Below are positions 8,015 to 22,105 of a DNA stretch of 38,929 nucleotides, in pieces; position 1 is the first letter of the stretch, and each line of letters starts with the position of its first letter. The DNA is from Lachnospiraceae bacterium. Lineage in GTDB: Bacteria > Bacillota > Clostridia > Lachnospirales > Lachnospiraceae. A program made the position numbers and the translations under genes. Under the pieces are notes generated by a model. It had not been told where the DNA came from, made no database searches, and saw only the letters and a program-made list of their open reading frames with translations. The stretch is taken from positions 1 through 38,929 of the forward strand of contig JAETON010000023.1 in the NCBI GenBank assembly GCA_021771695.1, written 5' to 3'.

Positions 8015-8044
8015 AGTATATCATAATGTCCGGCTCAATTTCAA
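8015..8044 (-). promoter_or_regulatory. Predicted promoter of the chorismate mutase-shikimate kinase gene
   Basis: On the minus strand TTGAAA (8039-8044) and TATACT (8015-8020) are 18 bases apart. The -35 overlaps the stop codon of the upstream LysR gene. Assigned by eye. Confidence 0.45.
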
Positions 8045-8925
8045 ACCGAATAGTGATTTTTTACAAACGTAACAAAATCTTCTGCTACAGGTGCAAGATA
8101 TTTTTTCTTTCTAGTCACAAGATAAATATATCTTTGAATCTCTGGAGCTGAAATTGGCAGAATACAAACATTCATCGTATCCAAAAGCGGAATTTTGGGC
8201 ATAATGGCAATTCCAAATCCCGCTGCCACCAAACCAGCCACAGAAGAATCCTCTTCACATTCATAAGCAATTTTAGGCTGGCATTTTATTTTCGCAAACA
8301 AACGGTCAATGACTGGACGCAGTCCGCTGCTTTTTGAAAAGTATACATAATCATAATCTGTTGTTTCCGCTAAATGAATGGATTCTTGATTTGATAACGG
8401 ATGCTCTTTCGGTGTAATAAGGACTAATTCTTCTTCTGCCACCGGAAAAAACTCCAAATCATCCTCTCCCCTTATAAAGGAAGAAAATACAAAATCATAT
8501 TTCCCATTTTTTAACTCCTTAATTACCTGACTCGTCGTTCCCTGTCCGAAAGAAAACTTAATTTTGTTCTCTCCTTTCTTTTTCATATAATCATTGATGA
8601 TCTGCGGGATAAAATGACTTCCCAATGTATAAATATATCCAATATCTAAAAAACCTCCATTTAATCCCGAAGACTCCGTGAGAATTCGTTTTCCTTCATC
8701 CAGCATTGCCAGCGATTGTTCTACATATCGAAGAAACAATGCTCCATATTTTGTTAATCTGGCATTCCGGCCATGTTTTTCAAACAATTTCAATCCCAGT
8801 TCACTTTCCAAGCACGAAATCGCATGACTGAGACTTGGCTGTGTAATCGACAACATCTCTGCCGTTTTGGTATAATGTTCTTCTTTTGCAAGTGCACGGA
8901 AGTAATATAAATGATTCAAATTCAT
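8041..8925 (-). CDS. LysR-family regulator (next to flavoenzyme 1)
   Basis: A 294-residue LysR-type transcription regulator. Residues 1-60 form the winged helix-turn-helix (A-E-M-L-S-I-T-Q-P-S-L-S-H-A-I recognition region). The linker helix and a two-lobe effector domain of the GltC/CynR type follow to the end. It is transcribed divergently from the flavoenzyme gene at 9053, and a palindromic T-N11-A box lies between them, so that gene is its most likely target. It resembles the second LysR protein (19000-19890) in overall design and opening sequence (M-N-L-N-x-L-Y-Y-F), suggesting a duplicated regulator-enzyme pair. The effector is unknown; a cyclohexene or cinnamate-like carboxylate is a reasonable guess. 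Confidence 0.92.
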   Translation of the reverse strand: MNLNHLYYFRALAKEEHYTKTAEMLSITQPSLSHAISCLESELGLKLFEKHGRNARLTKYGALFLRYVEQSLAMLDEGKRILTESSGLNGGFLDIGYIYTLGSHFIPQIINDYMKKKGENKIKFSFGQGTTSQVIKELKNGKYDFVFSSFIRGEDDLEFFPVAEEELVLITPKEHPLSNQESIHLAETTDYDYVYFSKSSGLRPVIDRLFAKIKCQPKIAYECEEDSSVAGLVAAGFGIAIMPKIPLLDTMNVCILPISAPEIQRYIYLVTRKKKYLAPVAEDFVTFVKNHYSV

Positions 8926-8941
8926 AGGCTTTCCTCCACGA

Positions 8942-8964
8942 ATTCATAATTTTTCTTTATGAAT
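8942..8964. promoter_or_regulatory. LysR box upstream of flavoenzyme 1
   Basis: ATTCATAA (8942-8949) and TTATGAAT (8957-8964) form a perfect inverted repeat around 7 bases and satisfy T-N11-A (T8947, A8959). The centre lies about 65 bases before the start predicted from the promoter at 8983-9011, the standard LysR recognition-site position. Confidence 0.75.
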
Positions 8965-8982
8965 AGTATAACATATTCTTCA

Positions 8983-9011
8983 TTGCATTTGTATACACAC
9001 TTTGCTATAAT
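8983..9011 (+). promoter_or_regulatory. Sigma-A promoter of flavoenzyme 1
   Basis: TTGCAT (8983-8988), a 17-base spacer and a perfect TATAAT (9006-9011). Transcription should start near 9018, leaving a short leader with the GGAGG ribosome site before the ATG at 9053. Confidence 0.75.
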
Positions 9012-9052
9012 TATGTAAGAAAAGATTATTTAAAGTTGGAGGAAAAATAAAT

Positions 9053-11041
9053 ATGGCAGCAAAGAATTTCCGTAAATTATTTGAACCGTATACAGTAAAA
9101 TCCATGACAGTAAAAAACAGAATTGTTATGACTCCGATTGGAACAAATTTTGCTGAACATACTGGAGAAGTAAACGAAAAAATCATTGAATATTATAAAC
9201 AGCGTGCAAAGGGCGGCGCTGGTTTAATTGTTATTGAAGGAGCAAGTGTTTATTCGCCTCAGGGAGCATCTGGATCTTATCAGCTCCGTATTGACCATGA
9301 CACCTATATTCCGGGACTTTACAGACTTTGTGAAACTGTTCATGGATATGGTTCTAAAATCAGCATCCTGTTAAATCATGCAGGTGCATCTGCAAATGGA
9401 ACCTTGACAAATATTCAGCCGGTTTCTGCATCTGATATTCCATCCAAAGCCGGCGGAGATATTCCAAGACCTCTGACAAAGGATGAAATTCTTATCATTG
9501 TTGATAAATTTGCACAAGCTGCACGCCGTGCTGTCACTGCCGGTTTCGATTCTGTTGAGATTCAAGCAGGACATGGATATTTGTTAAATCAGTTCCTTTC
9601 TCCGCTAACCAATGACCGTACCGATGAATTCGGCGGTTCTAAAGAAAACCGTGCACGTTTCTTGACGATGGTATTAAAAGCCGTTCATGAAACTGTTGGT
9701 GAAAACATCCCTATTTTCTTAAATATCAGTGCAGATGAATTGGCAGAAGGTGGAAATACACTGGAAGATACTTTAGAAATTATTGAATACTTTAAAGAAT
9801 ATGTTGACGTTTTCAGCGTATCTGCCGGATTAACATGTTCTATCCAATATCAAAATGATGCAGATTATCTCCCAGACGGCTGGAAGTCCTACATGGCAAA
9901 AGCAATCCGTGAAAAGACCGGAAAACCATGTCTGACCAGCGGAAATATCCGTGAACCTGAAATTGCAAACCGTATTTTGGAAGATGGAGAAGCCGATTTT
10001 ATTGCCATCGGACGCGGTTTGATCGCTGATCCGGAATGGGTAAATAAAGTACAGTTTGGAAATACCGATGATATTAACCGCTGTATTTCTTGTAACAATG
10101 GATGTACGGCTACATTAAGTGATGAACCAATCCGCTGTACAATTAATCCATCTATCGTATCTGGAGAATATTATAAGAAAAATTCTTTAAAGAAGCCTTG
10201 CAACGTTGTTGTTATCGGCGGTGGAACTGCCGGACTGGAAGCTGCATGTACTGCTGCAGAAGTTGGATGTGCAACTGTCTTAATTGAAAAAACAGGAAAT
10301 CTTGGCGGACTTGCAAGACGCGTCGGACAGATGCCAAACAAACGCCGTCTTGGTTATTTCCCGAAATATTTAGAACACCGTGCAGCCGGACTTAAAAATT
10401 TATTCGTCTGCAAAAATACTGAAGCTACCGTTGAACTGGTGGAAGGATTCAAACCAGATATTGTAGTAAATGCAACAGGTTCTAATCCTCTTCTTCCAGA
10501 TATTAAAGGATTAAAAGAAAACTTAGCAAAAGGAAATGTTTCTACTATTTTTGACTTGGTAGATAATGTAGATTCTTATCCGGAAGATTTAAGCGGCAAA
10601 AAAGTCGTTGTTATCGGAGGAGGTAACGTTGGATTAGACGTTGTAGAATTCTTTGCTCCAAGAAAAGCAGATCTTACCATCGTGGAACAAAAATCTCACT
10701 TTGGTGAAACTCTTGACTTTATTACAAGAACCGGTTCTATTGCCATGTTGAATAAATATAAAGTAAAACAGTATCCAAATGCTTCTCTTTTGGAAGTAAA
10801 AGAAGATAAATTTATTGTCAGACATGATTATAGAGACTTGGAACTGGATTTCGATTACGGATTTATCTGCCTTGGAATGGAATCTGCAACTCCGGCACTG
10901 AAAGAATTATACGATCACTTCATTTATGAAGGTATCGAAGTATTAAACATTGGAGACAGTGCAAAGACACGCCGTATGATTGAAGGTGTCAAAGAAGGAC
11001 GAGATATTTTAGTTGCTCTGGAAAGACAAAATTTCATCTAA
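9053..11041 (+). CDS. 2-enoate reductase/2,4-dienoyl-CoA reductase-like flavoenzyme 1
   Basis: The 662-residue cytosolic protein has the three-part layout of 2-enoate reductase, 2,4-dienoyl-CoA reductase and BaiCD/BaiH. Residues 1-330 are an FMN TIM barrel of the old yellow enzyme family (N-R-I-V-M-T-P near 23-29, Q-F-L-S-P-L-T-N-D-R-T-D-E-F-G-G after 180). A 4Fe-4S site uses Cys344, 347, 351 and 362. Two Rossmann regions for FAD and NAD(P)H follow (G-G-G-T-A-G-L-E near 391, G-G-G-N-V-G-L-D near 522). Such enzymes reduce C=C bonds conjugated to a carboxylate, thioester or ketone. At the usual substrate-binding His-x-x-His/Asn site it has Gln171-Ala-Gly-His174, unlike its paralogue at 20023. 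The substrate is unknown; the neighbours point to a shikimate-like acid. Confidence 0.9.
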   Translation: MAAKNFRKLFEPYTVKSMTVKNRIVMTPIGTNFAEHTGEVNEKIIEYYKQRAKGGAGLIVIEGASVYSPQGASGSYQLRIDHDTYIPGLYRLCETVHGYGSKISILLNHAGASANGTLTNIQPVSASDIPSKAGGDIPRPLTKDEILIIVDKFAQAARRAVTAGFDSVEIQAGHGYLLNQFLSPLTNDRTDEFGGSKENRARFLTMVLKAVHETVGENIPIFLNISADELAEGGNTLEDTLEIIEYFKEYVDVFSVSAGLTCSIQYQNDADYLPDGWKSYMAKAIREKTGKPCLTSGNIREPEIANRILEDGEADFIAIGRGLIADPEWVNKVQFGNTDDINRCISCNNGCTATLSDEPIRCTINPSIVSGEYYKKNSLKKPCNVVVIGGGTAGLEAACTAAEVGCATVLIEKTGNLGGLARRVGQMPNKRRLGYFPKYLEHRAAGLKNLFVCKNTEATVELVEGFKPDIVVNATGSNPLLPDIKGLKENLAKGNVSTIFDLVDNVDSYPEDLSGKKVVVIGGGNVGLDVVEFFAPRKADLTIVEQKSHFGETLDFITRTGSIAMLNKYKVKQYPNASLLEVKEDKFIVRHDYRDLELDFDYGFICLGMESATPALKELYDHFIYEGIEVLNIGDSAKTRRMIEGVKEGRDILVALERQNFI

Positions 11042-11047
11042 ACATAT

Positions 11048-11092
11048 AAAAAACAAATGCCGGAAGCTGAGTGTTTCCGGCATTTGTTTTTT
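11048..11092. terminator. Bidirectional terminator between flavoenzyme 1 and yqeG
   Basis: A perfect 18-bp stem (11048-11065 with 11075-11092) with a GC-rich core GCCGGAA and a 9-base loop ends in T-runs on both strands. It serves the converging flavoenzyme and yqeG genes. Confidence 0.92.
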
Positions 11093-11098
11093 ATTCAT

Positions 11099-11602
11099 TT
11101 ATTTATTTTTTCTTTTTCGATATCTCCAGAGAACTACTTTTTCCAGATATCGTTTCAAAACAATCTGTATCTCTTCTTTTGGATTCATTGGTTTTACCAA
11201 AATACTGTGAATTCCTGTACGATTTGCCCCATAAACATCTGTAAACAGCTGATCCCCTACAAAAAGAGTATTTTTCTTATTGGTTTCCATCAGTCTCATC
11301 GCTTTTTCATAGCCTTTGGTACTTGGCTTATTTGCCTTATATATGTAATAACACCCGCCGACATCCTGACAAAACCTCCGAACTCTTGGCTCTTTATTAT
11401 TGCTGGTAAAACAAAATTCATATCCGATTTTCTTTAATCTCTGGAATAACTTTTTCGCTCTTTGATCTGCTGGAGCATCATGCGGCACCAATGTATTATC
11501 TACATCAAAAATGATACCACGATAACCTTTCTGATAATATTCTTCAAAATCAATATCATAGGTGCTTTGAATGTCTTCTGACGGATAAAACTTTTGAAAC
11601 AT
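11099..11602 (-). CDS. yqeG: YqeG-family HAD IIIA phosphatase
   Basis: The ATG at 11602 is chosen because GGAG lies 7 bases before it and the 167-residue product matches the family length (about 170). A longer reading from 11674 adds a basic stretch with no similarity. HAD motifs are visible in order: D-V-D-N-T-L-V (nucleophile Asp), F-T-S-N-N, the Lys in N-K-P-S-T-K-G-Y and G-D-Q-L-F-T-D. The substrate is not established; a bacterial relative of PTPMT-type or phosphatidylglycerophosphate phosphatases has been proposed for the wider family. In Bacillus it neighbours yqeH and aroE. Here it stands alone, convergent with flavoenzyme 1 and divergent from the unknown gene at 11787. Confidence 0.88.
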   Translation of the reverse strand: MFQKFYPSEDIQSTYDIDFEEYYQKGYRGIIFDVDNTLVPHDAPADQRAKKLFQRLKKIGYEFCFTSNNKEPRVRRFCQDVGGCYYIYKANKPSTKGYEKAMRLMETNKKNTLFVGDQLFTDVYGANRTGIHSILVKPMNPKEEIQIVLKRYLEKVVLWRYRKRKNK

Positions 11603-11786
11603 CTTCAATCTCCATTCCTTTTTTCTCTTTTTTATTTTATAACAGCCTGCCTTTTTGTGCAACACGAAATTCACAGGATGATTTTTTGTTTCTCTCTTTC
11701 ATTTTTATATATTTTAATGTATAATATAAATAATTGAATTATTATTTTCATATTTACCTTCACCTCACAGGAAAGGGGGGAATTTC

Positions 11787-12860
11787 TTGAATCCATATCA
11801 TGTTACAAGTGCTCATATTGATACTATTGTCGAACGTAAGATTGAAGAAATGTCAAAAAACCCGGAAGCTGTTCTGCAGGCTTTGATGATGCATTCTCAT
11901 CGCTTTTTGTCCAGTCGTTTTCAGGCACCTGTTTTTTCGATCATCCGGCATCTTCTCACAAATGAAGACAGCCAATACCACTTTATGATCCAACGGCTGT
12001 TAAAACAAACTTCCCACTCCGCCATTAAGAATCTCGGCATTAATTTAGGATACAATTCATGGACTTATGGTGCTCAAACTATCCGCAGCACTATGCAGAA
12101 AACAGGATACTGCATTCCTTGGAATATTATATTCCGCTGGAATCCGGCAGATTCTGATGGATTGAATTTAAAATCCATCCATCAATTTATTTGTGAAGGA
12201 AACCGCATAGGTATTTTTTCTTTCTGCATTCGACAGGAAACTGCCCATCCAATCTCTGGTGAGATTTTTAACTTATTTGCTTCCCATCCAGATAACACAT
12301 TTTTCTGGTTTCTTCCAGACCAGCTCCTTGCACCTATTTATATTAATATGCTGCAAAGATATGAAAATGTCGTAGCTGTTTTGGATTCTGACAGTTCCTG
12401 CTGTCTCCGGAATATATCTTTGTTAAAGAATAGGAAAATCTTATACGGCATCTATCACACATATACCTCTGCCGATTCAAACCATCCAATCACTGATGAA
12501 TGGATTGATTATTTTTCTACTTACGACAGTGCTTTCGTGATTTTAATGGCAGATGATTCATGCAGCCAAGAATATCAAGCCCAAATAGCAGATTATGTTT
12601 ATAATGCCAGGTATTTTCAAAAATTCCCATTTATCCTTTTAGACTTCTACTCAGACATTATACGAATCAACCACTTAATTTCCGGAAAAAACAGCCTCTT
12701 AGAAATCAATTCCGATTACAGTATGATACATCCCAAAAATTCAGATGCAATATTTTGCCCTGGTACATCTTTAGGGCTGTATTTGGCATCATCCATGCCT
12801 GCCGCTAAGAATCCGCCATATGAAAATCCAGATTTCTGCATGATAAAACCCTGTTCTTAA
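11787..12860 (+). CDS. Unrecognised 357-residue protein
   Basis: The reading frame starts at TTG, 6 bases after a very strong GAAAGGGGGG ribosome site, so it is genuinely translated. I recognise no family. The N-terminal 100 residues look helical and end with N-L-G-I-N-L-G-Y-N-S-W-T-Y-G. The rest alternates short beta strands and helices (I-F-R-W-N-P, F-W-F-L-P-D, V-V-A-V-L-D-S-D, A-F-V-I-L-M, F-P-F-I-L-L-D-F-Y), which suggests a TIM-barrel-like or alpha/beta fold. Cysteines are scattered without the C-x3-C-x2-C cluster of radical SAM proteins. There is no signal peptide or membrane helix. It is divergent from yqeG, with a TATAAT at 11720-11725. Confidence 0.7.
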   Translation: MNPYHVTSAHIDTIVERKIEEMSKNPEAVLQALMMHSHRFLSSRFQAPVFSIIRHLLTNEDSQYHFMIQRLLKQTSHSAIKNLGINLGYNSWTYGAQTIRSTMQKTGYCIPWNIIFRWNPADSDGLNLKSIHQFICEGNRIGIFSFCIRQETAHPISGEIFNLFASHPDNTFFWFLPDQLLAPIYINMLQRYENVVAVLDSDSSCCLRNISLLKNRKILYGIYHTYTSADSNHPITDEWIDYFSTYDSAFVILMADDSCSQEYQAQIADYVYNARYFQKFPFILLDFYSDIIRINHLISGKNSLLEINSDYSMIHPKNSDAIFCPGTSLGLYLASSMPAAKNPPYENPDFCMIKPCS

Positions 12861-12874
12861 TCTATAACTATACT

Positions 12875-12917
12875 AAAAGTGGTTCAAAACATATTTTATA
12901 CATCTTGAACCACTTTT
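12875..12917. terminator. Bidirectional terminator between the unknown gene and dctP
   Basis: The perfect 13-bp stem AAAAGTGGTTCAA (12875-12887) pairs with 12905-12917 around a 17-base loop, with T-runs on either strand. It serves both the plus-strand unknown gene and the minus-strand TRAP operon. Confidence 0.85.
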
Positions 12918-12931
12918 TTCCAATTTATATT

Positions 12932-13939
12932 TTATTTTTGTAAATAAGAATCCACCAAATTTTTTCCTACTTTTTGTTCAATTTCTTCATAAATTGGTTC
13001 AGAAGCTTTTTGAATCGCTTTTTGTGTTTTCTCATCCAAAGATACAATCTTCGTTCCACTATCTTTAATAATTTTCATACGATCTGCAATTCGCTCATCC
13101 GATGCATTTCTTGCATACTCTTTTGCTGTTGCAGCAGCTTTTGTAATGATTTCCTGCTGCTCCTTCGATAAATCATGAAAAAAATCGTCACTTACAATGA
13201 GAGAAATATAATGTGGTAAATGATTCGTCTCTACAACGTAATCCTGCTGCTCATATAATTTGCTGGATACAATCACTTCATATGGATTTTCCTGTGCATC
13301 AATGGTCCCCTGCTGAAGCCCAATATATACTTCGCTAAAAGTCATTGGGGTTGGATTCGCCTTAAGAGCTTTCCAAAAATCCAAATGATAACTATTTTCC
13401 ATCGTACGGATTTTCTGTCCTTTAAAATCACGGAAGTCTTTTACTTCTTTATTGGTTGACATGACACGAAATCCTTGATCCGCATATCCAAGCAGTTTAT
13501 ACCCGCCCTTTTGATATACCTTTTCCATTTTCTGATAAAAATTCGGATTATCTACAGCTTTTCTAACTTCCTCAATATCAGTAAACGCGCTTGGAAGATC
13601 AAAGACCGCTGTTTCCGGTAAAAATGTTACCTGTGGTGCGGTATTTTGCACAACAAAAGGGATATCTCCGTCTTTACAGCTTTCCAAAAGTTCCCGGTCA
13701 CCGCCCAATGTACTATTTGGATAAACTTCAATTTTCATTTTTCCATGACTCAGCCGTTTCACTTCTTTGGCAAATTTTTCAGCATAGATCTGTGTTACCG
13801 TATCTTCCGGGCTAGATGTACCGAGCGGCCACGCATATCTTTGCACTTCATCCTTGGACTGCTTTTTCTTACATCCTGTCATTCCAAAAACCATAGCTGC
13901 AACACAGACAAGTACAAGTCCTTTTCTCCATTTTATCAT
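12932..13939 (-). CDS. dctP: TRAP transporter solute receptor (DctP family lipoprotein)
   Basis: The ATG at 13939 is preferred (335 residues): GGGAGG lies 8 bases before it, whereas the GTG at 13948 overlaps that site. The N-terminus is a lipoprotein signal ending G-M-T-G-C, so the receptor is tethered outside the membrane. The family blocks Y-P-N-S-T-L-G-G-D-R-E-L-L-E and G-Q-K-I-R-T-M-E-N are present. The Arg of the latter normally forms the salt bridge with the carboxylate of the ligand. The ligand is an organic acid; the shikimate/quinate genes next door suggest which. It starts one base after the dctM stop, as the last gene of dctQ-dctM-dctP. Confidence 0.92.
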   Translation of the reverse strand: MIKWRKGLVLVCVAAMVFGMTGCKKKQSKDEVQRYAWPLGTSSPEDTVTQIYAEKFAKEVKRLSHGKMKIEVYPNSTLGGDRELLESCKDGDIPFVVQNTAPQVTFLPETAVFDLPSAFTDIEEVRKAVDNPNFYQKMEKVYQKGGYKLLGYADQGFRVMSTNKEVKDFRDFKGQKIRTMENSYHLDFWKALKANPTPMTFSEVYIGLQQGTIDAQENPYEVIVSSKLYEQQDYVVETNHLPHYISLIVSDDFFHDLSKEQQEIITKAAATAKEYARNASDERIADRMKIIKDSGTKIVSLDEKTQKAIQKASEPIYEEIEQKVGKNLVDSYLQK

Positions 13940-13940
13940 T

Positions 13941-15239
13941 TTATGCACCTCCCAATAATACCAGACTAATCTGTGGAATGAATGTAATCAAAAGCAATGC
14001 AATCAAAAAACATAGAATCAAAGGCATTGCCTTTTTTGCAATTTCCATTACCGGAATATCTGTTAATGAAGATGCCACAAATAAGTTGACTCCTATCGGC
14101 GGAGTTACAAATCCAATGGCAAGATTTACTACCATCATAATTCCAAAATGCGTTGGATTCATCCCAATTGCTGTTGCAATCGGCAGTAAAATCGGTGTCA
14201 AAATTAAGATAGCAGGTGTTGTATCCATCACCATTCCTACAAATAAAAGGAAAAGATTAATTACAATTAAAATAACTACACTATTGCTGAAATTACTTAA
14301 AATCCACTGGCTGACAGACTGCGGAACTCTCATCAGCGTCAATACTCTTGAGAAAGCTACCGATGCGGCCAAAATAAATAAAATTGGGGCATACGTGCGA
14401 ACTCCCTCTACCATAACCTGCCACAAATCTCTTATTTTAATAGATTTGTATACAAACAGACTAACTGCCACAGAATAAAATACAGAAATCACTGCCGCCT
14501 CTGTTGGTGATGCAACACCGGAATAAATACATCCAAGAATAATCACTGGACTTAACAGTGCAAAAAAGCTTTCTTTAAATACTTGAAAAAACCCTTTTTT
14601 ATGAAGTTCATCTACTGCCTGATAAATTTTCTCTTTATCTTCTCCATGTTTCTTACAATAAAATACTGCATAAATCATTAAGAGCAATCCAATAAAAACT
14701 CCAGGGACAATTCCTGCAATAAATAAATCACTGACGGATTCACCAGAAGCCATTCCAAACATAATAAATGGAATACTTGGTGGAATAATTACCCCCAGAC
14801 CGCCTGCTACTGCTACAATGGATGTGGCAAAAACTTTATCATATCCTAATTTTATAAGAATCGGTATCGTCATGCTTCCCACAGCTGCTACTGTAGCAGG
14901 TGCAGATCCTGAAATCGCCCCGTAAAATAAGCAGGTTACAATGACTGCACACGGCATTCCTGCTGTGAGTTTTCCAATAAAATATACAAATACATCAAAT
15001 ATCTTTTTTGAAATACCGCCTTTTGCCATGATCATTCCAGACAAAACAAACATTGGTACTGCTAACAAAGGAAAACTATCAATACCTCCCAGCATAGAAC
15101 GGATTACAAATTGTCCGCTTGCTGTAAAAGAGGGATCAAAAGCTCCCGGAAGTACAGATACAATCCCTAATCCAATGGAAATTGGTATTGCAATGATTAA
15201 ACATACAAAAAAGATAAAGAATACAACTAATGCTGACAT
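13941..15239 (-). CDS. dctM: TRAP transporter large permease (DctM)
   Basis: The 432-residue polytopic protein has about 12 transmembrane helices and the DctM signatures P-M-F-V-L-S-G-M, G-A-I-S-G-S-A-P-A-T-V-A-A-V-G-S and I-P-P-S-I-P-F-I-M-F-G. It forms the ion-coupled translocation channel and uses a sodium or proton gradient to import the acid delivered by the receptor. It has its own GAGGAGGAGAAG ribosome site and overlaps dctQ by 13 bases. The length is standard for the family. The operon order Q-M-P, with the receptor last, differs from the textbook P-Q-M order but is common. Confidence 0.95.
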   Translation of the reverse strand: MSALVVFFIFFVCLIIAIPISIGLGIVSVLPGAFDPSFTASGQFVIRSMLGGIDSFPLLAVPMFVLSGMIMAKGGISKKIFDVFVYFIGKLTAGMPCAVIVTCLFYGAISGSAPATVAAVGSMTIPILIKLGYDKVFATSIVAVAGGLGVIIPPSIPFIMFGMASGESVSDLFIAGIVPGVFIGLLLMIYAVFYCKKHGEDKEKIYQAVDELHKKGFFQVFKESFFALLSPVIILGCIYSGVASPTEAAVISVFYSVAVSLFVYKSIKIRDLWQVMVEGVRTYAPILFILAASVAFSRVLTLMRVPQSVSQWILSNFSNSVVILIVINLFLLFVGMVMDTTPAILILTPILLPIATAIGMNPTHFGIMMVVNLAIGFVTPPIGVNLFVASSLTDIPVMEIAKKAMPLILCFLIALLLITFIPQISLVLLGGA

Positions 15240-15727
15240 ATCTTCTCCTCCTCATCTTTTCCTATGACAATTCTAAATTCAATAATCCATCTTTGAATAA
15301 TCCGAAAGGCAACCAAAACAAAACTAAATAATGGCGCTGCCTGAATATAATACATTGGAATTCCGCAGGCAGGACTTACCTGGCCGCTGTCAATGGCACT
15401 CTTTAAATAAAGAAATGCATATGGAATCAAATAAAAGAATAAAGCAAGTTCCAACGTATGATTTACTACCTTAAATACTGCCTTTCCTCTCCTTGGAAAC
15501 ATGGCAACAAACTGTTCAATTTTTATAGAAATACACTTTCTTGTACAATAACTTACACTGATAAACCCAGACCATATAAATAAGTATCTGGTGATTTCCT
15601 CTGACCATGACAGAGATGCACCAAGGGCATATCGTGCAAAAACCTGAATTCCCATAATCAATGTCATTGCAATTAACAATGACACCATAAGGAACTCTTC
15701 TAAGTTTTCATCCAGCCATTTTAACAT
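15227..15727 (-). CDS. dctQ: TRAP transporter small permease (DctQ)
   Basis: The 166-residue protein has four hydrophobic helices and the family motif S-L-S-W-S-E-E-I-T-R-Y between helices one and two. It pairs with DctM to form the membrane complex. It is the first gene of the TRAP operon, behind a sigma-A-like promoter at 15787-15815 and a pair of 14-bp direct repeats at 15821-15856. The C-terminal tail is charged and cytosolic. Family assignment is secure; the substrate is inferred only from neighbours. Confidence 0.92.
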   Translation of the reverse strand: MLKWLDENLEEFLMVSLLIAMTLIMGIQVFARYALGASLSWSEEITRYLFIWSGFISVSYCTRKCISIKIEQFVAMFPRRGKAVFKVVNHTLELALFFYLIPYAFLYLKSAIDSGQVSPACGIPMYYIQAAPLFSFVLVAFRIIQRWIIEFRIVIGKDEEEKICQH

Positions 15728-15786
15728 GATTAACCTCTTTTCACCTTTGTTACATTTACGTTATTTTTTTAACAACACCTTTTATA

Positions 15787-15815
15787 ATTATACTTTACCT
15801 ATACCTATTCAACAA
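15787..15815 (-). promoter_or_regulatory. dctQ: Predicted promoter of the TRAP operon
   Basis: On the minus strand TTGTTG (15810-15815), 17 bases, and a perfect TATAAT (15787-15792). The leader before dctQ is about 50 bases. Confidence 0.65.
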
Positions 15816-15820
15816 ATGCT

Positions 15821-15856
15821 TTTTATCTATCAATTCCATAAATTTTATCTATCAAT
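15821..15856. repeat. Pair of 14-bp direct repeats upstream of the TRAP promoter
   Basis: TTTTATCTATCAAT occurs at 15821-15834 and 15843-15856, 22 bp apart, about two helical turns, directly upstream of the -35. T-T-T-A-T with A-T-A-A-A 11 bases later (15822-15842) also fits a LysR-type T-N11-A pattern. The position suits an activator-binding site. The regulator is unknown; one of the two local LysR proteins is the simplest candidate. Confidence 0.6.
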
Positions 15857-15876
15857 CATAAGTGGGGAATATCAAA

Positions 15877-15911
15877 AGAAAAAGCAGTTTCAAAAAGAAA
15901 CTGCTTTTTCT
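15877..15911 (-). terminator. Terminator of the aroE-MFS-aroD operon
   Basis: The perfect 15-bp stem AGAAAAAGCAGTTTC (15877-15891) pairs with 15897-15911 around a 5-base loop, 8 bases after the aroD stop. The flanking A/T runs let it work in both directions. Confidence 0.9.
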
Positions 15912-15919
15912 GAATGCTT

Positions 15920-16681
15920 TTATAAGCTCTTATGCAGTAACTGAAGAACTGTCTGTAAATCATCGACTCCCATCTGTCCTGGTGCAGAGGCTTTCTTTGC
16001 TGCACCAAAAGTCAGAGCAGAACCAAAGACTTCTCCACAAAGACGGCTGATAACTCCTGTTCCTGCCATAGACATAGTAATAATTGGACGATCTGCATAC
16101 TCTGATGCCATTTCTTCTGTTGCAGATAACAATGTCAAAACATCTTTTTTATTCTGCGGCATCACTGCAATCTTTGGAATATCTGCTCCCAAATCCTGCA
16201 TTTTACGCAATCTTCCTACAATATCATCTTTTTCTGGAGTTTTATCAAAATCATGATTTGATGCCACAACTTTTACACCGCATTCATGAGCTGCTGCAAC
16301 AATTTCTTTTACAATATCATCTCCTGTGAAAACTTCTACATCCACAAGATCCACATATCCTGTTTTTGCCGTATTGATATTTAATTCTTTGTAAAGCTCT
16401 GCTTCAATTGCCTTTTCTCCACCCTCTTTGGATGTGCGGAAAGTAAAGAGAATTGGAGTTTCCCCTAATGCTTCTCTTAAATCTTTCAGAACATCTTCTA
16501 CTTTATCAAACTCAAAAACACCTTCAAACCAGTCTACGCGCCATTCCACAACGTCTACCGGAATGCTGTCAAAAGTTTTTGCTTCTGCGATAATTTCCTC
16601 TTTTGTTACACCAACGATTGGTACACAAATTTTTGGTACTCCTTCACCGATTTTAATATTTCTTACTTCTACTGGATTCAT
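15920..16681 (-). CDS. aroD: 3-dehydroquinate dehydratase, type I
   Basis: The enzyme dehydrates 3-dehydroquinate to 3-dehydroshikimate through a Schiff base. The ATG at 16681 is preferred over the TTG at 16687, because AGGAGG is 9 bases from the former and only 3 from the latter. With this start the catalytic residues fall at His143 (S-N-H-D-F) and Lys170 (I-P-K-I-A), the same numbers as in the enteric AroD enzymes, and the length is 253. K-E-G-G-E and S-A-P-G-Q are also present. It ends the aroE-MFS-aroD operon, separated from a biosynthetic context and next to transporters, so a dissimilatory role is at least as likely as aromatic amino acid synthesis. Confidence 0.96.
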   Translation of the reverse strand: MNPVEVRNIKIGEGVPKICVPIVGVTKEEIIAEAKTFDSIPVDVVEWRVDWFEGVFEFDKVEDVLKDLREALGETPILFTFRTSKEGGEKAIEAELYKELNINTAKTGYVDLVDVEVFTGDDIVKEIVAAAHECGVKVVASNHDFDKTPEKDDIVGRLRKMQDLGADIPKIAVMPQNKKDVLTLLSATEEMASEYADRPIITMSMAGTGVISRLCGEVFGSALTFGAAKKASAPGQMGVDDLQTVLQLLHKSL

Positions 16682-16711
16682 CGACAATTTCCTCCTATTG
16701 TCTGCTGCTTA

Positions 16712-17902
16712 TTATTTTGCTGCTTCCTCTGCATTTTTTAATAAAGTTCCGTATCTCATATTTACAAAAAGTGCTAATAAAACACCAATAACTGTGATAA
16801 CGATATTCATTGTAATTACCTGGGTTGATGTCATTTTGGCTGCTGCACTTAAAATTGTATAATTACATAAGCTGGATGCAATCATAACAAGACTTGTAAT
16901 GGTACCTTTAATTTTAGGGAACAAGTCATTGACTACTGCAGTTGCCATCTGGAGCACTCCTCCTGCTGCTGCATAACCAATAACGAAAGCTCCTATATAA
17001 CATATCATAGGTGTCTTTGTTATGTAAACCAGTACCAGCATGACCGCAGAAATTGCCGGATAAATTACTAAGAATCTTACCTGCTTAAATTTTGTGATTA
17101 ATAAACTTGTTACAAACAATGCAACCATCGTTCCAGCAGAATAATATGTCTGCATCATGGATACACTTTCTGATGGAATTCCAGCAACTTCTGTTCCAAA
17201 TGTCTGAGCACAGTTTAACCATAACTGGAAAGTTGCTGTACTTGTAAATCCAATCAGGATTAAAGCTACACTTTCGATTGAAAAATGTGCATTTTTTAAA
17301 TTGTCTAAGAAAGATTCTGATTTTCCACTTTCAGATGCTGCTGGGAATGGTGCAAAAACTGCTAATACTCCAAGAACTGCAATTGCAATACCTGCTGCCA
17401 ATGGAAGCATCAAATAAGACATAGAAGTTCCTGCCACAACACCTAAGAAGAATGGCATTAATAACTGTGCAACAGAAATAAATAATTTAATTCCCATGGT
17501 TGCAATACCTGTAAATTTATAAATAATTTCTGCCACTGCCGGATATGTTGCTGTATCAAGAAAAGAGTTTGCAATGCCGCCTAAAACTGCTGCCACATAA
17601 GCAACGGTTGTATTTGGTGAAAATGCGATTCCTACAAAGAAAATCACATAAGATGCACATCCGATTAATACAGAAAGACGACGTCCTAATTTGTCAGATA
17701 AAGGTCCTGCAAACGGAAGAGAAATCAAACGTCCCAGTCCCAATGCTGCTGCAATCGATGTAACTGCCATAACGTCAGACAATCCCCACTGCGCAGCTAA
17801 CATTTCCTTTACAACCTGTTGACTTAAAATAGAACATCCAATTCCATGGATAAAATAATTCAAATAAAGAATTAATGCACTTGGTAAATATTTTTTATTC
17901 AT
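16712..17902 (-). CDS. MFS transporter, YdiN/YdiM-like
   Basis: The 396-residue protein has 12 predicted transmembrane helices. The MFS loop 2-3 motif G-P-L-S-D-K-L-G-R-R lies near residues 66-75. Features shared with Escherichia coli YdiN as I remember it are Y-F-I-H-G-I near the start, L-G-L-G-R-L-I-S, G-I-A-N-S-F-L-D-T, and G-A-F-V-I-G-Y-A-A-A-G-G-V-L-Q. The enteric ydiN gene also sits with ydiB and aroD, so this operon conserves the association. The likely cargo is quinate, shikimate or their dehydro forms, but direction and substrate are not proven. The spacing is 28 bases from the dehydrogenase gene and 30 to aroD, each with its own ribosome site. Confidence 0.87.
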   Translation of the reverse strand: MNKKYLPSALILYLNYFIHGIGCSILSQQVVKEMLAAQWGLSDVMAVTSIAAALGLGRLISLPFAGPLSDKLGRRLSVLIGCASYVIFFVGIAFSPNTTVAYVAAVLGGIANSFLDTATYPAVAEIIYKFTGIATMGIKLFISVAQLLMPFFLGVVAGTSMSYLMLPLAAGIAIAVLGVLAVFAPFPAASESGKSESFLDNLKNAHFSIESVALILIGFTSTATFQLWLNCAQTFGTEVAGIPSESVSMMQTYYSAGTMVALFVTSLLITKFKQVRFLVIYPAISAVMLVLVYITKTPMICYIGAFVIGYAAAGGVLQMATAVVNDLFPKIKGTITSLVMIASSLCNYTILSAAAKMTSTQVITMNIVITVIGVLLALFVNMRYGTLLKNAEEAAK

Positions 17903-17930
17903 TTTGTTTTCCTCTCAATATATCTCTCTT

Positions 17931-18806
17931 TTATTCGTATTTAATATCCAAAACATCTTTCATATGATCAATTGGCATATGTTTTCCTGTCCATAAATGG
18001 AAAGCTGCATCTCCTTGGAATAACATCATTCCAAGACCATTCATTGTTTTACATCCAACTTCTTTTGCCATTTTTAATAATGCTGTTTCTCTTGGTGCAT
18101 AAATGGTATCTGTTACAATCAGATCCGGACGGAAGAATGATTTATCTGGAACAACAGACTGTCCTTCTAACGGTTTCATTCCAACACCTGTTGCCTGTGC
18201 AAATAAATAGCTGTCTGCAATTTCTTCTCTTAATTTTTCTTTATCATCCAAATCATAAAGATTTACGATACAATCTGTATTTTCACGGATTTTTTCTACT
18301 GTCTTTTCTGCATTCTCCCAGAATTTATCTTTGATATTAAAGATTGACATTTCTTTTACACCATCTAAAGCAGCTTGGATTTCAATTGCTGTTGCAGCTC
18401 CGCCTGCTCCTGTAATTGTCATTTTTTTACCAATTACATCAATATCATTATCTTTTAAAGACTGCATATAACCAATTCCATCGGTAATATGTCCAATCAA
18501 TTTTCCATTTTCATTTACGATTGTATTGACTGCTCCCGCCATTTTTGCTGCTGGTGAAAGTTCATCCAAATACTGTCCAACCACTGTTTTATTCGGCATA
18601 GATACATTGGAACCTACCAATTTCAAAGCACGAAGGCCTTTTACTGCATCCTCTAATGTATCATTGTCAACTTCAAATGCAAGATATGCATAGTCTAGTC
18701 CTAATGTAGCAAATGCTTCATTATGCATTGCCGGTGAGCTGGAATGTCTGATTGGATATGCCATTAATCCAATTAATTCTGTATGTCCTGTGATTCTTTC
18801 TGCCAT
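17931..18806 (-). CDS. aroE: Quinate/shikimate dehydrogenase (YdiB-like AroE family)
   Basis: The 291-residue enzyme interconverts shikimate and 3-dehydroshikimate, and probably quinate and 3-dehydroquinate. The catalytic pair is Lys73 (S-M-P-N-K) and Asp109 (I-T-D-G-I-G). S-S-S-P-A near 22-26 binds the substrate carboxylate. The nucleotide-binding loop is G-A-G-G-A-A. The segment after it reads I-F-N-I-K-D-K-F rather than the N-R-T motif of NADP-specific AroE. V-G-M-K-P-L-E and L-W-T-G-K also match YdiB, which uses NAD and accepts quinate. That argues for a catabolic or bidirectional enzyme. It is the first gene of its operon, divergent from a LysR gene. Confidence 0.92.
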   Translation of the reverse strand: MAERITGHTELIGLMAYPIRHSSSPAMHNEAFATLGLDYAYLAFEVDNDTLEDAVKGLRALKLVGSNVSMPNKTVVGQYLDELSPAAKMAGAVNTIVNENGKLIGHITDGIGYMQSLKDNDIDVIGKKMTITGAGGAATAIEIQAALDGVKEMSIFNIKDKFWENAEKTVEKIRENTDCIVNLYDLDDKEKLREEIADSYLFAQATGVGMKPLEGQSVVPDKSFFRPDLIVTDTIYAPRETALLKMAKEVGCKTMNGLGMMLFQGDAAFHLWTGKHMPIDHMKDVLDIKYE

Positions 18807-18880
18807 TTTATTTCTCCTTACATTAAATTTTGTTACGTTGCGCCACCCAAAAGTTAATTTTTTAACAACCTTATGTCTGT

Positions 18881-18886
18881 ATTATA
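18881..18886 (-). promoter_or_regulatory. aroE: -10 element of the aroE operon
   Basis: A perfect minus-strand TATAAT lies within GCGTTATAATAC. No good -35 lies 17 bases upstream, which is typical of activator-dependent promoters. The start is expected near 18877. Confidence 0.65.
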
Positions 18887-18930
18887 ACGCAGTTCTATTG
18901 ATACTTCTAATATATCTTTTGTTAATTTTT

Positions 18931-18947
18931 AATAGCTTTTTGCTATT
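18931..18947. promoter_or_regulatory. LysR box between aroE and its regulator
   Basis: The perfect palindrome AATAGC-N5-GCTATT fits T-N11-A. Its centre (18939) is about 62 bases upstream of the predicted aroE start and also close to the divergent LysR gene, suiting both activation and autoregulation. Further short GTTA/TAAC inverted pairs lie at 18853-18866 and 18954-18964. Confidence 0.75.
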
Positions 18948-18999
18948 ATTCGTGTTAAAATAACTTCAGAAAAAAATATATAATAAGGAAAGCAGATAT

Positions 19000-19890
19000 A
19001 TGAATTTAAATCAATTATACTATTTTCAAAAAATTGCTCAGCTTGAACATTATCATCAAGCTGCAAAAGAATTAAATATTTCACAGCCAAGTTTGAGCCG
19101 TTCTATGTCAAATTTGGAGGAAGAATTAGGAATTCAGCTGTTTAAACGAATTGGAAGAAATATCGAACTAACTAAATACGGTCAGGTTTTTTTGGAACAC
19201 GTCAATCGAATTCTTGAAGAGGTAAAAATTGCAAAAACCAAAATGAAATCCTTATCCAACGCCTCTGGCGGCCACATAGATATCGGTTATGTATTTCCTT
19301 TAGCAAAATCGTATATCCCCCACATGGTACGGAATTTTTTAAACTCAGGCTGTAATCAAAATATTACCTTCTCCTTAAATCAAGATATTACAAATAAACT
19401 GATTACCAATTTAAAATCAGAGAAATATGATATTGTTTTTGGTTCTTATGTACCAGATGAACCAGACATCGAATTCATTCCCATCATCAATCAGGAAATG
19501 GTAATAATCACTCCGCTGGAACACCCTTTAAAGAAAAAGAAACCTCTTGTCTTAGAGGATTTAATGGATTATCCCGTAATTGGATACGACAAAACTTCTG
19601 GTCTTGGGCAGTATACAGCTTCTATCTACAAACAAAATCATATTTCTCCTTCCATAGCTTTTGAAACGCCAGATGAAAATGCCATTGCCTCTCTTGTTGC
19701 TGAAGATTTTGGAATTGGGTTTGTAGCCCATGTAGAATCTCTTAGGGAATATGACGTTGAAATTCTGCATTTAGATAATGTAAAACCGTATCATACGGTT
19801 TATATGGCATATTTAAAAGATTCTCCAATAATTCCTGCGGTTTCCAAGTTTATTCAATTCGTAAAAGAAACCATAGATAAATTTTATTGA
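19000..19890 (+). CDS. LysR-family regulator (next to aroE and flavoenzyme 2)
   Basis: A 296-residue LysR-type regulator. The winged helix-turn-helix occupies residues 1-60 (A-K-E-L-N-I-S-Q-P-S-L-S-R-S-M), followed by the linker helix and the effector domain. It is divergent from the aroE-MFS-aroD operon, shares a palindromic T-N11-A box with it, and lies 132 bases before the second flavoenzyme gene on the same strand. It therefore probably controls both sides in response to a pathway intermediate. It is similar in arrangement and opening residues to the LysR at 8041-8925. Translation starts at ATG after an AAGGAAAG ribosome site. Confidence 0.92.
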   Translation: MNLNQLYYFQKIAQLEHYHQAAKELNISQPSLSRSMSNLEEELGIQLFKRIGRNIELTKYGQVFLEHVNRILEEVKIAKTKMKSLSNASGGHIDIGYVFPLAKSYIPHMVRNFLNSGCNQNITFSLNQDITNKLITNLKSEKYDIVFGSYVPDEPDIEFIPIINQEMVIITPLEHPLKKKKPLVLEDLMDYPVIGYDKTSGLGQYTASIYKQNHISPSIAFETPDENAIASLVAEDFGIGFVAHVESLREYDVEILHLDNVKPYHTVYMAYLKDSPIIPAVSKFIQFVKETIDKFY

Positions 19891-19909
19891 TTTTTCTAAA
19901 AATATCAAT

Positions 19910-19938
19910 TTGTTAAATATTTGACTGGGTGTTATAAT
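19910..19938 (+). promoter_or_regulatory. Predicted promoter of flavoenzyme 2
   Basis: TTGTTA (19910-19915), 17 bases and a perfect TATAAT (19933-19938). An AT-rich inverted repeat AAATAT/ATATTT (19900-19905, 19917-19922) overlaps the -35 and also fits T-N11-A. A second repeat, TGGGTGTT (19926-19933) with AACACCCA (19955-19962), brackets the expected start and looks like an operator. Confidence 0.55.
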
Positions 19939-20022
19939 AAACTCATCATTAAAAAACACCCAAATTATAATGATAACAGCCTCAACAGAAAACAAGATTT
20001 TATTTTTGGAGGTTTCAATTCT

Positions 20023-22020
20023 ATGAAATGTAATTATAAAAACATTTTCTCCCCATTGACAATTAAGAACATGACAATGAAAAACCGTGTCATGATGACT
20101 CCTATGGGAACAAACTATGGTGAACAAACTGGTGAAATGAGCTTTTTGCATATTGATTATTATAAAGAAAGAGCAAAAGGCGGTGTTGGTCTGATTATGG
20201 TAGAAAATGCCAGTGTAGACTCCCCTCTTGGTTCTAATGGTACAACTCAGATTCGTATTGACCATGATAACTACATGCCTCGTTTCTTCAAACTTTGTGA
20301 AACGATCCATTCCCATGGAGCATGTATTGGACTTCAGTTAAACCATGCTGGTGCTTCTGCTCAATCCAAAAGAACGAATATGCAGCCAGTTTCTGCATCC
20401 AATATTCCTTCCAAAGCCGGCGGAGAAATTCCCCGCCCATTGGAAAAAGATGAAATTTATACAATTGCAAAAAAATATGGAGAAGCTGCAGCACGTGCAC
20501 AAGCTGCAGGATTTGACTGTGTTGAAATCCATGCCGGACATTCTTACTTAATCAGCCAATTCCTTTCTCCAACTACCAATAGAAGAACGGACGAATTTGG
20601 TGGATGTCCGGAAAACCGTGCCCGTTTTGCAAAGATGGTAATCGAAGAAGTTCGGAAAAATGTCGGACCAATGTTCCCAATTTTTGTTCGTATCAGTGCA
20701 GATGAATTTGTAGAAGGTGGAAATACTTTAGAAGATACGTTAGAACTTCTCTCTTATTTCCAAAATGAAGTTGACGCATTTGATGTATCTGCCGGATTAA
20801 ACAGTTCTATCCAGTATCAGATTGATGCAAATTACTTAAAAGATGGATGGCGTTCTTACATGGCAAAAGCTGTCAGAGAAAAATTTGAAAAACCTTGTGT
20901 AACGATGGGTAATATTCGTGATCCTCGTATCGCAGATGATATTTTAGGACGCGGTGATGCAGATATCATCGGTATGGGCCGTGGATTAATCGCTGATCCT
21001 CACTGGGTAAAGAAAGTTGCATCCGGACGTGAAGATGAAATCCGCAAATGTATTTCCTGCAACATTGGATGTGCCGGAAACCGTATCGGAGTCAACCGTC
21101 CAATCCGCTGTACCATCAATCCAACCATTAACTCTGGATTTGACTATAAAAAGAAGAAAGTGAATAAACCATGTAACGTTATTGTTATCGGCGGAGGAAC
21201 TGCTGGACTGGAAGCTGCATGTACTGCTGCAGAGGTTGGATGTACAACTTTCTTATTTGAAAAAAATAAACATTTAGGCGGTTTATCTGTAGAAATCTCT
21301 AAGATTCCAGATAAAAAACGTCTGGCTGATTTCCCAACTTATTTGGTAAATCGTGCTTCTAAGTTATCAAATTTATTTATATTTAAAGGTCAGGAAGCAA
21401 CTCTGCCATTCATTAAGGCACTGCATCCAAATATTATTGTCAATGCAACTGGTTCCAATCCTTTACTTCCTCCAATTAAAGGACTCCATGACCATATTGA
21501 TAAAGAAGGCTCTAAGGTTGCATCTATCACTGGAATGATCAACAACCTTTCTGCATATCCAGAAGACTGTTCTGGAAAGAAAGTCGTTGTTATCGGCGGT
21601 GGTGCAGTAGGTCTTGATGTTGTAGAATATTTTGCTCCAAAAGGTGCAGATGTCAGCATCGTAGAAATGATGCCTCAGATTGGAAAAGAATTAGATCCTG
21701 TTTCAAAATCCGGAACCACTGCATTGATGAACAAATACAGCGTAAATCAGATGCCAAACACTGCTCTTTGTGAAGTAAAAGCTGACTGTTTCGTTGTAAA
21801 AGCAGATGGCAAAGAAAAGGAACTGCCGTTTGATTATGGATTTGTATGTCTTGGAATGAGAGCTAACGCTCCTATCCTTGATGAAGTACGCGACGCATTC
21901 TCCGACAGTGATGTAGAAATTCTAAACATTGGTGACAGCGTCCGTGCTAGAAGAATTATTGACGGTGTACAGGAAGGTCATAATATTTTAAGCACTCTTG
22001 CAGACCTTGATTATCTGTAA
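20023..22020 (+). CDS. 2-enoate reductase/2,4-dienoyl-CoA reductase-like flavoenzyme 2
   Basis: The ATG at 20023 follows GGAGG by 10 bases and gives 665 residues that align end to end with flavoenzyme 1; the upstream in-frame extension is not needed. The layout is an FMN old-yellow-enzyme barrel, a 4Fe-4S cluster (Cys343, 346, 350, 363), then FAD and NAD(P)H Rossmann regions (G-G-G-T-A-G-L-E, G-G-G-A-V-G-L-D). Here the substrate-site motif is His170-Ala-Gly-His173, with His where flavoenzyme 1 has Gln. The spacing between the third and fourth cluster cysteines is two residues longer. It should be a soluble C=C reductase for an unsaturated acid or its derivative. It lies downstream of the LysR gene that faces aroE. 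Confidence 0.9.
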   Translation: MKCNYKNIFSPLTIKNMTMKNRVMMTPMGTNYGEQTGEMSFLHIDYYKERAKGGVGLIMVENASVDSPLGSNGTTQIRIDHDNYMPRFFKLCETIHSHGACIGLQLNHAGASAQSKRTNMQPVSASNIPSKAGGEIPRPLEKDEIYTIAKKYGEAAARAQAAGFDCVEIHAGHSYLISQFLSPTTNRRTDEFGGCPENRARFAKMVIEEVRKNVGPMFPIFVRISADEFVEGGNTLEDTLELLSYFQNEVDAFDVSAGLNSSIQYQIDANYLKDGWRSYMAKAVREKFEKPCVTMGNIRDPRIADDILGRGDADIIGMGRGLIADPHWVKKVASGREDEIRKCISCNIGCAGNRIGVNRPIRCTINPTINSGFDYKKKKVNKPCNVIVIGGGTAGLEAACTAAEVGCTTFLFEKNKHLGGLSVEISKIPDKKRLADFPTYLVNRASKLSNLFIFKGQEATLPFIKALHPNIIVNATGSNPLLPPIKGLHDHIDKEGSKVASITGMINNLSAYPEDCSGKKVVVIGGGAVGLDVVEYFAPKGADVSIVEMMPQIGKELDPVSKSGTTALMNKYSVNQMPNTALCEVKADCFVVKADGKEKELPFDYGFVCLGMRANAPILDEVRDAFSDSDVEILNIGDSVRARRIIDGVQEGHNILSTLADLDYL

Positions 22021-22053
22021 ACCTTCAATACATATAATATTCATCGTTTCTCT

Positions 22054-22087
22054 AAAAAAGGACATGACAAAAAATCATGTCCTTTTT
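22054..22087 (+). terminator. Terminator of flavoenzyme 2
   Basis: AAAAAGGACATGA pairs with TCATGTCCTTTTT (22055-22067 with 22075-22087) around a 7-base A-rich loop, followed by T-rich sequence. Confidence 0.92.
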
Positions 22088-22105
22088 CCATTTATAAATT
22101 TCTTC

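Follow-up and report, generated by a model that had tools for sequence, protein, structure and literature searches.

A flavoenzyme gene conserved beside aroE and aroD suggests a module for quinate/shikimate-type acids in Lachnospiraceae

Contig JAETON010000023.1 of a Lachnospiraceae bacterium raises the question of why genes for a YdiB-type quinate/shikimate dehydrogenase (AroE), a major facilitator superfamily (MFS) transporter and a type I 3-dehydroquinate dehydratase (AroD) lie beside a tripartite ATP-independent periplasmic (TRAP) transporter and between two genes for old yellow enzyme (OYE)-like flavoenzymes of ∼660 residues, here called OYE1 and OYE2, each with its own LysR regulator gene. 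The window analysed is this entire contig (38,929 bases), from a genome of 2.85 Mb that is 99.96% complete and has Anaerostipes species as its closest named relatives (OYE1 identity 79–88% across seven loci). A preliminary description of the sequence had read the locus as an island for reductive quinate/shikimate utilisation, and the genes it had named, that is, the AroE-MFS-AroD set, the adjoining TRAP genes and the two regulator-flavoenzyme pairs, were all recovered (Table 1). Its interpretation stands in part: the genes form a conserved and apparently co-regulated module, but probably not a purely catabolic one. With this and further corrections, reductive use of quinate or shikimate appears, on balance, to be the best reading of the locus.

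OYE2 is a conserved neighbour of AroD and AroE

We surveyed the neighbourhood in 150 Lachnospiraceae genomes, one per genus with the source included, using OYE2 and type I AroD as queries. Relatives of OYE2 (E 1e-140 or better) were present in 13 genomes and type I AroD in 87, and AroD lay at most 5 kb from an OYE gene in nine of the 13 (G000, G545, G443, G509, G555, G525, G531, G473 and G417). Simple arithmetic for one AroD in a 3-Mb genome gives a chance expectation of ∼0.3–0.4% per OYE. The neighbourhood of OYE2 with AroD and AroE is beyond chance, the opposite of the rare association that the preliminary description had named as grounds for giving up its proposal. As a query, AroE matched 31 of the 150 genomes at E 1e-95, just six of them at ≥66% identity, and OYE2 was present in five of these six. 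Within the class holding locus L059, OYE2 was found in 4 of 395 genomes.

The neighbourhood was also followed in the best 80 loci (77 contigs) of 161 relatives from a pattern scan of species genomes, each spanning up to 10 kb on either side and many cut at contig ends. AroE was present in 71 of these (counting any tblastn match at 1e-20, so that some may be housekeeping copies), AroD in 67 and both in 66, together with LysR in 73, MFS in 68, DctM in 56 and a shikimate kinase fusion in 28. Eight loci had neither AroE nor AroD (L009, L010, L019, L027, L037, L062, L074 and L083); L009 and L010 are Anaerostipes OYE1 copies, and four of the eight are on contigs shorter than 7.3 kb. As gene order and strand are changed in loci such as L016, L017, L022 and L058, the association outlasts rearrangement.

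Departures from the common arrangement were also seen. AroE is split into two open reading frames (ORFs) in Blautia hansenii (L013, 6023–6901) and the OYE gene of genome G412 (L133) is broken, so that the module is possibly decaying in some lineages. In L120 and L121 (genomes G492 and G552), a LysR1-OYE pair located away from AroD adjoins a shikimate kinase and a YqeG-like gene, an arrangement that resembles that of OYE1 in Anaerostipes.

OYE1 and OYE2 share an architecture but are not equivalent

The source genome has just two PF00724 matches, OYE1 and OYE2, and these share 59% identity. Both match PF00724 (Oxidored_FMN) and PF07992 (Pyr_redox_2), and four iron-sulfur (Fe-S) cysteines (344/347/351/362) are invariant in all 107 aligned OYE relatives, the rows kept from 119 proteins after removal of those with identical last 600 residues. 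Clostridial 2-enoate reductase and FldZ are described as having a ∼73-kDa subunit with a flavin mononucleotide (FMN) barrel, four Fe-S cysteines and a flavin adenine dinucleotide (FAD)/NADH domain (PMC5882074). By length, domains, cysteines and model fold, both window proteins have the architecture of the clostridial 2-enoate reductases (EC 1.3.1.31) and, compared by description, that of FldZ (PMC5882074), whose genomic partners differ from theirs. The earlier label '2-enoate-reductase-like' holds for domain architecture only. 2-Naphthoyl-CoA reductase, which acts on coenzyme A (CoA) esters, is 28% identical.

The curated NCBIfam models that score best for both flavoenzymes, BaiCD, BilR and mycofactocin OYE, all stay far under their cut-offs (OYE2: 476.8 against 825, 355.3 against 750 and 417.3 against 793, respectively). 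All three identities are rejected: OYE1 reaches 467.3 with the BaiCD model NF041087, and the HGDR motif, given as the mark of the bilirubin reductase BilR (PMC10769871), is present in none of the 107 aligned rows.

The preliminary description had treated the two flavoenzymes as equal partners, which does not hold. The OYE1 paralogue was found in Anaerostipes only, does not have the promoter palindrome described below, and in 11 of 11 cases has Gln in place of the first His of the OYE His-His pair; because of this replacement, its substrate is likely to differ from that of OYE2. At the position aligned to Tyr166 of dienoyl-CoA reductase, OYE2 has HSYL and OYE1 has HGYL. OYE2, not OYE1, is the conserved partner of AroE and AroD.

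A palindrome recurs in the promoter regions of the module

Both regulators have the effector domain of Listeria Lmo0488 (5ted) as their best solved structure (LysR1: E 2.7e-57, with 197.5 bits where the runner-up scores 94.7; LysR2: E 4.5e-39, with 138.2 bits where the runner-up scores 81.7), which makes them kin of the QuiR type; we take Lmo0488 to be QuiR, with shikimate as its effector. A palindrome, GTTAA-N4-TTAAC, has three sites in the window at no more than one mismatch, all in promoter gaps of the module, and the site at 19912–19925 overlaps a promoter-like TTGTTA-17-TATAAT before OYE2. This number of sites equals chance (2.16 expected; three reached in 42 of 100 shuffles), and a longer pattern gave six matches at up to two mismatches against 3.06 expected, six being reached in 9 of 100 shuffles. 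The weight of the palindrome rests on site positions and conservation, not on number.

Across relatives, counted after dropping AroE, DctQ and AroD matches below 60% identity and upstream regions shorter than 150 bp, the palindrome was present before AroE in 33 of 65 cases (4.2 expected from a rough dinucleotide shuffle), before LysR2 in 32 of 56 (4.7), before OYE2 in 12 of 72 (1.6) and before DctQ in 7 of 54 (0.9). Counts were 2 of 41 before LysR1 and 2 of 62 before AroD (0.7 expected for each), 10 of 479 before other flanking ORFs (5.2 expected), and zero before OYE1 (0/7), MFS (0/68) and shikimate kinase (0/28). Removal of identical upstream regions changed the counts for DctQ (6/51) and AroD (2/60) only, and a looser count (45% identity limit, 260 bp) gave 28/69 for AroE, 13/72 for OYE2 and 8/58 for DctQ. 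Because the palindrome is found upstream of them more often than expected across relatives, AroE and, more weakly, the TRAP genes and OYE2 look co-regulated; OYE1 does not.

Before OYE1, a different element, TTGCATTTGTATACACACTTTGCTATAAT, is strongly conserved with small changes in 11 of 11 genus genomes (window 8983–9011; L086–L096). It holds a palindrome of its own, TGTATACA, between the likely −35 and −10 of OYE1, which is unlike the shared one.

AroD presumably serves biosynthesis as well

AroE shares 49% identity with E. coli YdiB and exceeds the cut-off of a curated shikimate dehydrogenase model (Table 1); it falls narrowly below that of the quinate/shikimate model NF009390 (345.1 against 349). 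Its best structure match, 3tnl, is presumably of Listeria origin. Another contig of the source genome carries a second AroE. AroD is 57% identical to E. coli AroD and matches 3js3 over residues 5–255 (E 8.3e-98), as a type I enzyme would. Because no other dehydroquinate dehydratase was found in the genome, AroD presumably serves aromatic biosynthesis too, and a purely catabolic reading of AroD is rejected; the single aroD of E. coli serves biosynthesis. A type II dehydroquinate dehydratase was not found in the source genome and was present in 2 of 11 Anaerostipes genomes (G007 and G003), its position inside the island being seen in G007.

The gaps inside AroE-MFS-AroD are 28 and 24 bp, and since a terminator-like hairpin lies between this set and the TRAP genes, the two suggest separate transcripts. 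The three TRAP genes are adjacent and overlapping, as expected for DctPQM subunits, with DctQ assigned by a weak match and by position; the best solved structure for DctP is 7bbr. Deletion of E. coli ydiN raised shikimate yield ∼1.3-fold, in a passage that calls the precise function of YdiN unknown (PMC8788726), an effect that fits shikimate transport by the YdiM/YdiN family.

A proposed reductive route for quinate and shikimate

Our favoured reading, though well short of certain, is a module that is induced for using acids of the quinate/shikimate type anaerobically and in which OYE2 would reduce the ring as an electron sink. The TRAP transporter, the YdiM/YdiN-like MFS protein or both would import quinate or shikimate, and the YdiB-like AroE would oxidise its substrate with NAD+, giving 3-dehydroquinate from quinate or 3-dehydroshikimate from shikimate. 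AroD would dehydrate 3-dehydroquinate to 3-dehydroshikimate, in addition to supplying aromatic biosynthesis. The ring C=C of 3-dehydroshikimate is conjugated to a ketone and carboxylate, as an OYE-type enzyme requires, and OYE2 may pass NADH electrons to it through FAD, the 4Fe-4S cluster and FMN, a step suggested by the chemistry of the family. Reduction of the ketone next would give a dihydroshikimate-type acid, with one net NADH consumed per quinate or shikimate. The two Lmo0488/QuiR-like LysR proteins might control the set through the shared palindrome, and OYE1, a paralogue that has diverged and lies next to a LysR gene of its own, probably acts on another enoate or on an intermediate further along.

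The diet is rich in both acids, quinate coming from the esters of coffee and fruit, and it has long been known that anaerobes reduce them. In the 1950s lactic acid bacteria were reported to reduce quinate to dihydroshikimate, with which the proposed route agrees. To our knowledge, no gene is known for ring reduction of either acid, and among the open-licence papers listed, judged mostly on titles and abstract openings, none assigned a flavoenzyme to quinate or shikimate; the conserved OYE2 is one enzyme candidate for this step. Anaerostipes are butyrate-forming gut bacteria, and the route, if true, would offer such gut bacteria a dietary electron sink as well as suggesting a substrate for Listeria Lmo0489. 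One passage in the literature has 'dihydroshikimate' apparently written for dehydroshikimate (PMC8706239).

Several observations weigh against this proposal. The source genome has one type I AroD, which is the sole dehydroquinate dehydratase found there, and its presence alone is therefore no proof of catabolism. Most near solved relatives of DctP are annotated as TRAP binders for which the acid is unspecified or a different one, in many cases sialic acid. Substrates of the ene-reductase family range from bile acids and bilirubin to cinnamates and enoyl-CoA, so that residues do not single out a substrate for OYE2. OYE2 is away from AroD in four of the 13 genomes (133 kb in G511, 186 kb in G492, another contig in G552, and a broken OYE without AroD in G412), and a second OYE in G443 stands alone. 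The scan that gave the 80 loci used patterns taken from proteins of the window, so that these loci are close relatives. Finally, the palindrome was first spotted by eye and counted afterwards with the rough shuffle, its AroE and LysR2 counts come partly from one common intergenic region, and at the stringency of one mismatch it is missing from 32 of 65 AroE, 60 of 72 OYE2 and 47 of 54 DctQ upstream regions.

Alternative functions of the locus

The locus might instead handle hydroxycinnamates such as chlorogenate: quinate esters would be cleaved, AroE and AroD would take the quinate, and the flavoenzymes would reduce the side-chain C=C of caffeate-type acids, much as FldZ-type reductases treat 2-enoates. 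The three-domain architecture is the same as in FldZ-type 2-enoate reductases (PMC5882074), a BD-FAE-type esterase is found in some clusters, and the altered pocket of OYE1 would admit a different enoate. However, the esterase occurs in 8 of 101 searched sequences and nowhere in the window, and OYE2 keeps company with AroE and AroD without it and has their palindrome, which makes this explanation unlikely.

We consider it still less probable that the genes scavenge for biosynthesis, imported shikimate or quinate feeding aromatic amino acids through the adjacent shikimate kinase while the flavoenzymes detoxify unrelated enoates. The lone type I AroD of the source genome would fit, as would the absence of a type II enzyme there and from 9 of 11 Anaerostipes genomes, a shikimate kinase nearby in 28 of the 80 loci, and the listing of 3-dehydroquinate synthase and shikimate kinase among the aromatic-synthesis genes of the genus (PMC12888040). 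Yet the genome has a separate second AroE, the OYE2-AroE-AroD linkage and the shared palindrome would be left unexplained, and an enlarged island in one Anaerostipes genome (G007, below), where type I AroD and YdiB-like AroE each occur twice alongside a type II enzyme, exceeds apparent biosynthetic need. An aromatising route from 3-dehydroshikimate to protocatechuate, with the flavoenzymes acting on later or side products, as work on the Listeria qui genes might suggest, is very improbable: an Lmo2234-like TIM-barrel protein (2g0w, E 5.8e-98), at a guess a dehydroshikimate dehydratase, adjoins AroE, MFS and a third flavoenzyme in L038 and has relatives in L119 and L127, but its gene occurs in 3 of 101 searched sequences and nowhere in the window, and the L038 flavoenzyme belongs to a distant clade (31–33% identity to OYE2).

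Related loci in Listeria and E. coli

Related loci exist in Listeria and E. coli, and the window is a variant of these; the earlier view that no described pathway has exactly these parts is tempered by these precedents. Listeria supplies the best structure match for both window regulators (Lmo0488) and for AroE (3tnl). The window differs from the lmo0488-lmo0489 (QuiR) locus by its TRAP transporter, its pair of regulators and its additional flavoenzyme. One listing has Lmo0489 as an NADH oxidase of 664 residues (PMC13082608), close in length to the window flavoenzymes (662 and 665), and a passage elsewhere describes its reaction and substrate specificity as still to be elucidated (PMC10269891).

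In E. coli, the ydiN-ydiB-aroD grouping cited in the preliminary description was seen as such: the order is ydiM-ydiN-ydiB-aroD-ydiF-ydiO, with MFS, YdiB and AroD as neighbours, as in the window. AroD and YdiB are the closer counterparts, and the MFS proteins are 30–32% identical. Unlike the window, the E. coli stretch (11 annotated features) has no such flavoenzyme and no TRAP genes; YdiF and YdiO suggest that a CoA-dependent way might be taken instead of the flavoenzyme.

Variant loci in relatives

Three relatives carry a longer run of genes. In L123 (5259–17145; on a contig from the Hespellia-related G443 genome) and L125 (4443–16555; genome G555), a single same-strand run combines TRAP, MFS, AroD and OYE with genes for a TIM-barrel protein, a pair of zinc dehydrogenases, an IolN-type hydrolase and an HMGL-like protein; in L021 (12327–18269; Robinsoniella peoriensis), the run from AroD to HMGL matches theirs and the OYE gene is divergent beside it. 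For L123 the IolN model returns 532.8 bits (cut-off 245), and the IolN-type match is the only one above cut-off in each of the three genomes. The two zinc dehydrogenases stay under the IolM cut-off (179.6 and 183.7 against 450). IolN was found in none of 11 Anaerostipes genomes.

These runs allow the tentative and rather doubtful suggestion that the cluster serves as the entry half of a pathway by which anaerobes ferment hydroaromatic acids completely while bypassing the aromatic ring. OYE2 would saturate 3-dehydroshikimate to a cyclohexanone polyol acid, and the second half, in the species with these runs, would consist of two IolM-like zinc dehydrogenases, an IolN-type 1,3-diketone hydrolase for ring opening and an HMG-CoA-lyase-like aldolase; Anaerostipes, without this half, would excrete the reduced acid. 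The named substrate of IolN, 3-dehydro-scyllo-inosose, is a cyclic 1,3-diketone, and oxidised ring-saturated dehydroshikimate would likewise be one. Alternatively, an inositol pathway may merely share the gene run in these loci.

The expanded Anaerostipes island of G007 (L137–L138) has three MFS genes besides its two type I AroD, two YdiB-like AroE and type II dehydroquinate dehydratase. It further holds a ketopantoate-reductase-family (PanE) protein, a gene that we would label MaoC-like and, as in the E. coli stretch, a YdiF-type CoA-transferase (60% identical to E. coli YdiF). This content is hard to explain by biosynthesis. The distant flavoenzyme clade occurs with AroE and MFS in L038 (14880–19776), L119 (1993–8601), L127 (966–5925) and L140 (17083–19857); the Lmo2234 homologue stands beside the flavoenzyme in the first three, and the L140 stretch ends inside the flavoenzyme. 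The BD-FAE-type esterase is on six contigs and a GntP-family permease (7 of 101 searched sequences) on five, in Anaerostipes butyraticus, A. avistercoris, Roseburia inulinivorans, a Mediterraneibacter and others; in L006, L011, L025, L045 and others both are inserted between AroD and DctQ. The esterase is a candidate quinate-ester (chlorogenate) hydrolase.

Other features of the window

Table 1. Genes and sequence elements of the locus (aa, amino acids; HAD, haloacid dehalogenase)
Feature	Position	Strand	Evidence or remark
Shikimate kinase with extra N-terminal part	7179..7958	-	161.8 bits, below model cut-off 204
LysR1, Lmo0488 (QuiR)-like regulator, divergent from OYE1	8041..8925	-	Pfam LysR; best PDB match 5ted
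Promoter-like element before OYE1, TTGCAT-17-TATAAT, TGTATACA in spacer	8983..9011	+	kept in 11/11 genus genomes
OYE1, 662-aa FMN/4Fe-4S/FAD ene-reductase-like protein	9053..11041	+	Oxidored_FMN and Pyr_redox_2
Terminator-like hairpin after OYE1	11048..11092	+	
YqeG-like HAD phosphatase	11099..11674	-	without NCBIfam match at 1e-30
ORF of 357 aa, TTG start	11787..12860	+	no Pfam/NCBIfam match
DctP, TRAP solute-binding protein	12932..13948	-	TIGR00787, 220.6 bits vs cut-off 175
DctM, TRAP large permease	13941..15239	-	TIGR00786, 408.7 bits vs 268
DctQ, TRAP small permease	15227..15727	-	weak NCBIfam YiaM match, 32.9 bits vs cut-off 260; position
Operator-like palindrome upstream of DctQMP, 1 mismatch	15760..15773		
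Terminator-like hairpin after AroD	15877..15911	-	
AroD, type I 3-dehydroquinate dehydratase, TTG start	15920..16687	-	TIGR01093, 254.6 bits vs 139.3
MFS transporter	16712..17902	-	32% to E. coli YdiM, 30% to YdiN
AroE/YdiB-like quinate/shikimate dehydrogenase	17931..18806	-	NF001313, 523.7 bits vs 431; best PDB match 3tnl
Perfect operator-like palindrome GTTAATTTTTTAAC in the AroE-LysR2 gap	18853..18866		
LysR2, second Lmo0488-like regulator	19000..19890	+	best PDB match 5ted
Operator-like palindrome, 1 mismatch, overlapping likely OYE2 −35	19912..19925		
OYE2, 665-aa (from ATG) FMN/4Fe-4S/FAD ene-reductase-like protein	20023..22020	+	

Guanine-plus-cytosine content is even across the window (0.348–0.381), and each of 11 genus genomes out of 11 has two OYE matches, on which grounds the idea of a recently acquired foreign island is rejected. 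The shikimate kinase is probably biosynthetic, and we read its additional N-terminal part as chorismate-mutase-like. The YqeG-like gene is probably an unrelated housekeeping gene. The 357-aa ORF has homologues at 54–56% identity in four of seven Anaerostipes loci searched.

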